Origin: Rubricoccaceae bacterium
GTDB lineage: Bacteria > Bacteroidota > Rhodothermia > Rhodothermales > Rubricoccaceae
Assembly: GCA_024639085.1 (NCBI GenBank)
Contig: JAHEJB010000009.1
Location: forward strand, 1 to 41,552
DNA length: 41,552 nt
Reading direction: 5' to 3'
Shown here: in pieces, positions 20,380 through 21,484 of the stretch
Layout of the letters: every line of letters begins with the position of its first letter
Numbering within the stretch: position 1 is the first letter of the stretch
Program-made: the position numbers and the translations under genes
The notes under the pieces: generated by a model
Told to the model about the DNA's origin: nothing
The model's input: the letters and a program-made list of their open reading frames with translations, nothing else
The model's database searches: none

Positions 20380-20448
20380 GGGCAGTGGTGTTTGCTGTGA
20401 ATACAACTGCCGAAAGCCAAGCCATCAGCAGAGTTCTTGATCTTGTGC

Positions 20449-20601
20449 AGAGAGGGATTGGCTTTCGCCCATCCCGAAGTGGGGTCCTGCAGCTGCGAAG
20501 ACTAGGACTTCGTCCTCGTGAACTCATGGAGCAATCTTCCGAGCAAGCTCGGGATCACTCCATATCGTTCACCGCGCAAAGCGCGTCTTCTTGTTGCGGA
20601 G
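20449..20601 (-). repeat. 153-bp tandem repeat unit, tRNA-distal copy
   Basis: This unit differs from the next one at a single position I can see (agctgcg versus aactgcg) plus a short divergence at its outer edge. On the tRNA-sense (minus) strand it holds several perfect mini-hairpins: CGCGC-ttt-GCGCG, CCGAGC-tt-GCTCGG and AGGAC-gaa-GTCCT, plus a CCCA/TGGG stem. Its outer end carries AATCCCTCTCT, matching the tRNA-Ser 3' end. The period of 153 is a multiple of 3, which is why a long plus-strand ORF appears through it. Confidence 0.95.
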
Positions 20602-20680
20602 AGAGAGGGATTGGCTTTCGCCCATCCCGAAGTGGGGTCCTGCAACTGCGAAGACTAGGACTTCGTCCTCGTGAACTCAT
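20555..20680 (-). other. Small basic ORF inside the tandem repeats (speculative coding)
   Basis: On the tRNA-sense strand, ATG 20680 opens a 41-codon frame starting MSSRGRSPSLRSCRTPLRDG, rich in Arg and Ser, and closing at TGA 20555. The distal repeat has the same start at 20527 with a different C-terminus running toward yicC. In E. coli the analogous tyrT repeats encode a small basic protamine-like protein (Tpr), so the resemblance in design is noted. No Shine-Dalgarno is visible, and repeat hairpins fall within the frame, so this may be chance. Confidence 0.2.
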
Positions 20681-20754
20681 GGAGCAATCTTCCGAGCAAG
20701 CTCGGGATCACTCCATATCGTTCACCGCGCAAAGCGCGTCTTCTTGTTGCGGAG
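20602..20754 (-). repeat. 153-bp tandem repeat unit, tRNA-proximal copy
   Basis: This unit abuts the tRNA-Ser gene. The 15-bp GGAGAGAGAGGGATT (plus strand, 20751-20765) that forms the tRNA acceptor 3' strand and part of the T stem reappears exactly 153 bp away at 20598-20612, so each unit carries a tRNA 3' end followed by the same downstream sequence. The unit contains the same mini-hairpins as the other copy. Confidence 0.95.
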
Positions 20755-20837
20755 AGAGAGGGATTCGAACCCTCGGTACCGGGAACCGGCACACACGCTT
20801 TCCAGGCGTGCCCCTTAAGCCACTCGGGCACCTCTCC
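20750..20837 (-). tRNA. tRNA-Ser (anticodon GGA)
   Basis: The minus strand folds as a class II tRNA of 88 nt. The acceptor stem pairs GGAGAGG with TCTCTCC (one G-T), discriminator G. The D arm is in GCCCGAGTGGCTTAAGGGGC. The anticodon loop CTGGAAA within CGCCT...AGCGTG gives anticodon GGA. A long variable arm (GTGCCGGTTCCCGGTACC) follows, and the T arm is GAGGGTTCGAATCCCTC. CCA is not encoded. It reads UCC/UCU serine codons. It lies between frr (upstream) and two tandem repeats that copy its 3' end. Confidence 0.97.
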
Positions 20838-20914
20838 AAAATTGAACGGCGTAAAACTAGAAGGATAGGGACCCTTGCCGCAATGCAGTCTTGGCAAAAT
20901 CGGGTTGTCGGGGC

Positions 20915-21484
20915 CTAGACCGCCATGATGTCCGCTTCTTTCTTCTCCAGCATCTCATCCACTTTGTCCGTGTGGTTGTCGGTATGCTTTTGAAGGCGCT
21001 CTTCCGCCTCAAACTTCATGTCCTCGGGCATCTGCTCCTCGTTGTGAAGCTTCTGAAGGTTGTTTCGTGCGTCGCGGCGGACATTGCGGATGGAGATCTT
21101 TGCCTCTTCGCCTTTGGCGTGAGCTTGCTTGGCTAGCTCAGTCCGCCGTTCTTCTGTGAGCGGCGGAATAGCGATCCGAATAAGTTCGCCGTCGTTGGTT
21201 GGATTAATGCCGAGGTTCGCCGCCTGAATGGCACGCTCGATAGCGCCCAGTTGGGTTTTATCCCACGGCTGAATGACGATCAGATCGTGGGAAGGCGTGC
21301 TGATGCTGGCAACCTGGTTTAGGGGCATCATGCTGCCGTACGCATCCACACGAACATCTTCCACCATCGTTGCACTGGCTCTGCCGGCCCGGATGTGTCC
21401 CAGTTCTGTAGCCAGGTGTTGCAGCGACTGATCCATCTGGTGGCGTGCGTCCTCAAGAAGGGCTTTAAGTTTTTCGGCGATCAT
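20915..21484 (-). CDS. frr: Ribosome recycling factor
   Basis: A 189-aa protein from ATG 21484 (MIAEKLKALLEDAR); the track's extra 30 N-terminal residues are not part of the family. Diagnostic segments are 'LGHIRAGRASATMVEDVRVDAYGSMMPLNQVASI', 'QPWDKTQLGAIERAI' and 'RRTELAKQAHAKGEEAKISIRNVRRDARN'. With EF-G it splits the post-termination ribosome. It is placed after pyrH as in most bacteria. The C-terminus (DEMLEKKEADIMAV) matches the normal end. Confidence 0.96.
   Translation of the reverse strand: MIAEKLKALLEDARHQMDQSLQHLATELGHIRAGRASATMVEDVRVDAYGSMMPLNQVASISTPSHDLIVIQPWDKTQLGAIERAIQAANLGINPTNDGELIRIAIPPLTEERRTELAKQAHAKGEEAKISIRNVRRDARNNLQKLHNEEQMPEDMKFEAEERLQKHTDNHTDKVDEMLEKKEADIMAV

Follow-up and report, generated by a model that had tools for sequence, protein, structure and literature searches.

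tRNA-tail-bordered structured elements with an rtT-like layout: a very probable class behind tRNA genes of a Rubricoccaceae genus and other bacteria

What are the two nearly identical 153-bp units that lie directly behind a tRNA-Ser(GGA) gene of a Rubricoccaceae bacterium, each carrying a copy of the tRNA's 3′ end? The layout recalls rtT, an oddity of enterobacterial tRNA-Tyr that has stood alone for decades. In E. coli, rtT is a known stable RNA with, to our knowledge, no agreed function. We analyzed a window comprising the whole 41,552-nt stretch of contig JAHEJB010000009.1 given above. Tandem Repeats Finder and a direct-repeat scan place its sole array at 20449–20765, with a period of 153 and two units of 99% identity, directly 3′ of tRNA-Ser(GGA) on the minus strand. 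This bears out an earlier note on this DNA, which had described two near-identical units and a tRNA end of ∼15 bp recurring at the same period; the repeated part is exactly 17 nt. The features of the array are as follows.

20749–20837, minus strand: tRNA-Ser(GGA) (ARAGORN; Rfam tRNA 53.8 bits)
20749–20765, minus strand: the repeated segment, last 17 nt of tRNA-Ser(GGA), T-loop A58 to C74, AATCCCTCTCTCTCCGC
20607–20754, minus strand: unit 1, from the tRNA acceptor end to a T-arm-like hairpin (covariance models R1 128 bits, R2 123.9 bits; fold z = −6.5)
20596–20612, minus strand: exact second copy of the tRNA 3′ end, between the units, AATCCCTCTCTCTCCGC (by sequence)
20454–20601, minus strand: unit 2 (R1 125.6 bits, R2 121.8 bits)
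∼20442–20459, minus strand: third, decayed copy of the tRNA 3′ end, after unit 2, AATCCCTCTCTGCACAAG / AATCCCTCTCT-GCACAAG (by sequence)

The repeat border is the AATCC of the T-arm, and unit 2 departs from unit 1 by one substitution, in the stem P1 (GUUGC to GCUGC). Since the assembly is a draft (235 contigs, 89% complete), the true copy number of the 153-bp units could differ; the one internal base difference supports at least two real copies. The tandem doubling may be recent. At the position of the congener orthologous to the decayed third copy stands an exact one. Behind the repeats lies yicC, on which Pfam and the earlier note agree. A 177-aa frame of RERGIRTLG...-type runs antisense through the repeats and the tRNA (20385–20918, plus strand) and is almost certainly spurious; a sub-threshold Rfam match to Plastid-psbl-rps4, antisense to the tRNA (20750–20793, plus strand), looks like a library cross-match to tRNA-Ser.

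A single 153-bp unit folds at −73.6 kcal/mol (shuffles, −47.1 ± 4.1; z = −6.5). The predicted architecture is a four-way junction that has the acceptor end of the tRNA itself as part of its base, followed by the T-arm-like hairpin P5 (GGAU...AAUCC). The perfect small hairpins reported earlier in each unit do exist, but not as independent structures: they are the parts of this one fold, listed here from the tRNA outward.

20746–20753, minus strand: P1 5′ strand, UCCGCAAC, made of the tRNA's 3′ acceptor end and trailer; partner strand 20638–20646 (fold, covariation)
20650–20743, minus strand: junction with three arms, whole span (fold; covariation helices 2–6)
20738–20743 with 20650–20655, minus strand: junction-closing stem GAAGAC/GUCUUC (fold, covariation)
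20727–20737, minus strand: first arm, GCGC-UUU-GCGC (fold, covariation)
20671–20725, minus strand: long arm, cap GAGCUUGCUC (fold, covariation)
20658–20668, minus strand: third arm, GGAC-GAA-GUCC (fold, covariation)
20638–20646, minus strand: P1 3′ strand, GUUGC-A-GGA, its GGA pairing with UCC of the tRNA (fold, covariation)
20607–20628, minus strand: P5, the T-arm-like hairpin GGGAUGGGCGAAAGCCAAUCCC, whose AAUCC starts the tRNA-tail copy

Among members of the group the architecture stays constant while the sequence turns over. P1 joins the acceptor end of the tRNA, with the first bases of its trailer, to a segment with GCAGGA at its end, of which the GGA varies with tRNA identity; the long-arm cap is GAGCUUGCUC or a GYUYRC-type loop, and P5 reads GGAUGGGCG..AGCCAAUCC. 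Compensatory change had been named beforehand as the key test, and it is abundant: in model-fitted alignments, whose rows are not independent, 30 of 41 pairs show changes on both sides among 14 sequences, and 40 of 41 covary among 63. For either alignment, none of 500 shuffles reached the observed covariation, and slid structures pair at ≤45%, against 88–90% for the real one. Double changes are present in 13 pairs even without model fitting (MAFFT alignment, 7 sequences). In the 63-sequence alignment, the outermost pairs of P1, built on the tRNA's own tail, co-vary with tRNA identity. No known RNA family in Rfam 15 matches the element.

The unit is not peculiar to one locus. A DNA search of its own genome returned a 69% relative behind tRNA-Ser(TGA) and a second, weak match behind tRNA-Ser(GCT), and the element was next located behind tRNA-Ser(CGA). 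All four standard tRNA-Ser genes (GGA, TGA, GCT, CGA) have it at their 3′ side. The congener, the only one of the genus, has it at each of the four orthologous genes; its CGA copy is truncated, and at GCT there are decayed stacked copies. In both genomes the matches of R1 are confined to these tRNA-Ser loci. A fifth tRNA-Ser(GCT) in the own genome (contig 73, L179) has a different tail, AATCCTGTCCTCTCCGC, a normal terminator-like hairpin and no element. The tRNA-Ser genes found in the seven other genomes of the family are followed by plain terminators or unrelated sequence, the element being absent.

The earlier note had looked to a covariance search of related genomes, and this search found relatives. 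When 115 genomes of the order and 397 genomes of the phylum were searched with the refined model R2, 20 new matches emerged, all 20 at tRNA 3′ ends (Ser, Arg, Pro); R2 includes about six tRNA bases and so favors Ser sites, while the Arg and Pro matches came without those bases. ARAGORN assigned the tRNA for 19 matches, and for the last the 3′ part of a tRNA-Ser was read upstream. Presence is sporadic (11 of the 115 order genomes, 10 of the 397 phylum genomes), the searched genomes being drafts and the E-values, from short calibrations, rough. The exact P5 pattern reaches further, with matches in 49 GTDB contigs. It lies ≤450 nt downstream of a same-strand tRNA in 29 of them, or 30 with L097, whose tRNA is just outside the locus. 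The partners are Thr in Prevotella-type genomes, Tyr and Arg in Flavobacteria, Ser and Pro in Saprospiraceae, and Ala in Spartobacteria; several non-tRNA matches look like chance matches in coding sequence, in a number near the chance expectation. P5 was also considered as a dispersed repeat and rejected, with only 2 of ∼396 others at one mismatch in the phylum's random genomes. Eight P5 contigs belong to one Verrucomicrobium MAG, I3b_bin-317 (L095, L105, L119, L120, L127, L129, L131, L135), where AATCCC-bordered repeats of ∼60 bp containing P5 are dispersed at intergenic places, apparently freed from tRNAs.

The border of the element is as regular as its fold. A body of ∼130 nt stands directly behind the tRNA, and where the element looks young, the last 17 nt of the host tRNA (T-loop A58 to C74) recur after it; several members share this same extent. 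Beyond the AATCC of P5, the copy matches the adjacent tRNA over a mean of 3.56 nt and the other tRNAs of the set over 0.22 nt; none of 10,000 permutations reached the adjacent-tRNA value. At two loci, Ser-GGA and Arg-TCT, it tracks a change of the tRNA between sister species. The earlier note had also pointed to the genome's other tRNAs, and tail copies do occur at some of them: 7 of 40 in the own genome and 7 of 39 in the congener, against 0 of 43 in a related genus, g2, with a shuffled-partner null of ∼1. A strong hairpin, replacing the T-arm, precedes most of these copies.

Some of these loci merit separate description. Tail copies of 14–22 nt lie 68–134 nt downstream of Lys, Arg, Trp, Asn, Gly, and Gln tRNAs (L153, L159, L160, L163, and L176 in the own genome; L241, L258, L269, L272, and L277 in the congener), most with a perfect hairpin before them and several with a common GCCTsCGCm motif. 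At L176, a tRNA-Arg(CCG), the downstream repeat contains CTAAAGGTTCGACACGAGCGA, near rtT's CTAAGGTTCGACTCGAGCGA, and terminates in AATAATCC followed by the tRNA tail; it falls below what Rfam detects. Behind tRNA-Pro GGG of the own genome (contig 48; L180 / L227) stand tandem 362-bp units with three tail copies at 97–100% identity; they carry an 81–84 aa GIY-YIG nuclease frame (Pfam E = 1e-14) in addition to the T-arm and 3′ end of the tRNA.

We conclude that these loci very probably represent one class of structured elements bordered by tRNA tails. We give an even chance to the reading that they are non-coding mini-elements that insert at the T-loop/3′ end of tRNA genes and spread in this way as DNA. 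Such site-specific insertion would leave the tRNA intact and duplicate its tail. The mobilizing enzyme would be encoded elsewhere and would recognize the folded DNA together with its pairing to the tRNA tail. Repeated insertion at one point would push older, decaying copies away from the tRNA, and the window's two near-identical units would stem either from the latest insertion or from a unit that was recently duplicated.

Several observations argue for insertion. Site specificity, tail duplication, and sporadic presence fit a gene-less element that enters repeatedly at tRNA 3′ ends. Its occurrence at all four standard tRNA-Ser genes of two species, with the rest of both genomes free of it, supports the same reading, as do the placement of every new match at a tRNA 3′ end, a tail copy that matches the adjacent tRNA and follows its changes, and the fifth tRNA-Ser, which has a different tail and no element. 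Orthologous elements are 72–73% alike, no more than non-orthologous ones, as independent insertions predict. Concerted evolution within genomes was considered and rejected, only the GCT/CGA pair being clearly more alike. The tRNA-proximal copy scores best in all eight multi-copy loci (100, 38, and 24 bits, for example), a score that is raised by the part of the tRNA end included in the model. At L323, a terminator-like stem follows the element and its tail copy, as if displaced. Finally, rtT itself varies from 0 to 4 copies among E. coli strains, and the tail copy cleanly delimits its empty and filled sites, which we count for mobility as well; in strain SK1144, the spacer between two tRNA-Tyr genes lacks the rtT unit and is joined exactly at the tail copy.

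Part of this evidence also admits other readings. Empty and filled sites can likewise come from deletion between direct repeats, and long selection on structure, also in copies without a tail repeat, could be equally compatible with a host function. The stable RNA known from rtT in E. coli likewise speaks against the mobile-DNA reading. The search for a mobilizing enzyme found none, small GIY-YIG genes being tRNA-linked at one locus only. A GIY-YIG nuclease as general mobilizer, which fits tRNA-Pro, was rejected: the other small GIY-YIG genes checked do not stand at tail-copied tRNA ends.

The rival that survives best is a functional trailer RNA of the kind supposed for rtT, co-transcribed with the tRNA, folded, and cut at the tail copies into ∼150-nt RNAs, which would titrate tRNA-processing factors or serve as sRNAs. 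The deep covariation across 63 sequences and the strand-specific placement directly behind tRNAs are what such an RNA would show. In the window genus, moreover, no intrinsic terminator lies between tRNA and units and the sense strand has no T-runs; a scan for a G+C hairpin with a T-run likewise found none on the window's minus strand. Annotation describes E. coli rtT as an sRNA that is processed out of the tyrT transcript, and RtT-family RNAs of Pasteurellaceae gave Northern signals (PMC4986893). Against this, in 17 of 36 members the first arm of the element is itself an intrinsic terminator, its U-tract forming one strand of the long arm, so that the rest of the element there would lie beyond transcription.

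The mismatches in the stems also bear on this point. A sense RNA is expected to tolerate G-U and not A-C. Isolated stem mismatches have a G-T:A-C ratio of 4:3 in stems found by a Watson-Crick-only rule, and on the model alignment the ratio is 52:38, with an alignment-error background of ∼16 per other type, compared with 131:9 in tRNA stems. This near equality counts for mobile DNA. The T-arm-like loop of P5, GNNA, has no GNRA bias (R 17, Y 22), and a patchy distribution with changing tRNA partners also weighs against a trailer RNA. Thus, scarce wobble pairs, the unbiased loop, and terminators inside many members moderately favor an element that acts as a DNA-level structure rather than as RNA, and we regard a trailer RNA as rather unlikely.

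We consider it improbable that the repeats arose by local duplication, in which the T-arm AATCC would be misaligned with the AATCC of a nearby hairpin and template switching would perfect the inverted repeats, creating and renewing them without any element or function. The AATCC microhomology at unit borders, Watson-Crick perfect stems of up to 26 bp, and the variable copy number of rtT in E. coli are all consistent with such a process, and the 362-bp tRNA-Pro units, with different contents, are duplicated similarly. However, it leaves unexplained why GCAGGAUCC, GAGCUUGCUC, and GGAUGGGCG..AGCCAAUCC are conserved across families, why every standard tRNA-Ser of two species has the element, and why none of the 43 tRNAs of a related genus does. 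Mere slippage, as the earlier note had allowed, fails for an element that recurs behind each of the four standard tRNA-Ser genes and is present in other families too.

It is very improbable that the element serves as a bidirectional terminator or insulator behind tRNAs. The order of hairpin, U-tract, A-tract, and hairpin, in which the two tracts pair within the long arm, would suit that role, as would the sense terminator in 17 of 36 members and the element's position where relatives have terminators, but the window genus has no sense-strand T-runs, and such a role accounts neither for the tail copy nor for P5 and the base pairing to the end of the tRNA. A Tpr-like basic peptide encoded by each unit has next to no chance: as 153 is a multiple of 3, an open frame in one unit continues through both, but the Arg/Ser-rich frame proposed earlier is not conserved, the lengths of other members vary modulo 3 with stops within their frames, and comparison of members rejects a conserved peptide. 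Hammerhead, attC-like, and T-box readings were also tried and rejected, no sequence signature of any of them being seen.

Returning to the mobile mini-element, it is useful to compare it with known systems, of which rtT (RF00391) is the closest in design. Both form tandem units directly behind a tRNA (178 vs. 153 bp), both have their border exactly at the T-arm AATCC with a copy of the tRNA tail in the units, and both have, by inspection, a closing stem GGAU/AUCC that takes in this copy. In E. coli O157, the 178-bp units start exactly at AATCC (AATCCTTCCCCCACCACCA, five places), and the closing stem of the Rfam RtT structure is GGGAAGGAU-G...A-AUCCUUCCC. The rtT/tyrT analogy is therefore stronger than first stated. 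rtT differs in its tRNA (Tyr rather than Ser), in an Rfam structure without a four-way junction based on the tRNA end, and in its Tpr peptide, for which no counterpart is supported in the window units. The RtT model has no match in the window region up to E = 10 or in ten related loci up to E = 1, and R2 has none in the E. coli rtT locus at E < 0.01. Given the lack of a window match, the likeness is one of layout and closing stem and not of proven common descent. More tentatively, we propose a widespread gene-less mobile class that would insert at the T-loop/3′ end of bacterial tRNA genes through recognition of a folded DNA four-way junction paired with the tRNA tail, of which rtT may be a domesticated or relict member.

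Integrative elements at tRNA genes follow, as a general rule, a pattern in which a direct repeat runs from the T-loop to the tRNA 3′ end and the tRNA stays intact (PMC9897764). The element shares with their attL and attR the direct repeats of the tRNA 3′ end at both its ends. Unlike them, it has a body of ∼130 bp with a conserved fold that pairs with the tRNA tail, and no integrase gene or conserved frame was found within that body. A further difference is that related elements stand at several different tRNAs. REP/BIME sequences and MITEs resemble it in being small, non-coding, and palindromic, with features of bidirectional terminators, and rtT-like sequences have been noted inside BIMEs (PMC2965389). 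REP/BIMEs, whose palindromes bear a tag (GTAG or CGTC), are dispersed, whereas the element is strictly at tRNA 3′ ends in the order (for R1, at tRNA-Ser only in the own genome and congener). As for MITEs, its palindromes are internal only; no MITE-type terminal inverted repeat was seen and no parent transposon was identified. In the literature covered, which left most subscription journals outside its scope, such elements are undescribed except in papers on rtT, BIMEs, and integration. The layout of rtT, here combined with a strongly covarying fold that belongs to no Rfam family, recurs behind several types of tRNA, both in this phylum and in some bacteria outside it. This turns the single-locus puzzle of rtT into a comparative problem, and the comparison predicts places in which to seek empty and filled sites, a mobilizing enzyme, and a transcript. 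It also warns annotators that copies of a tRNA tail need not be prophage scars.
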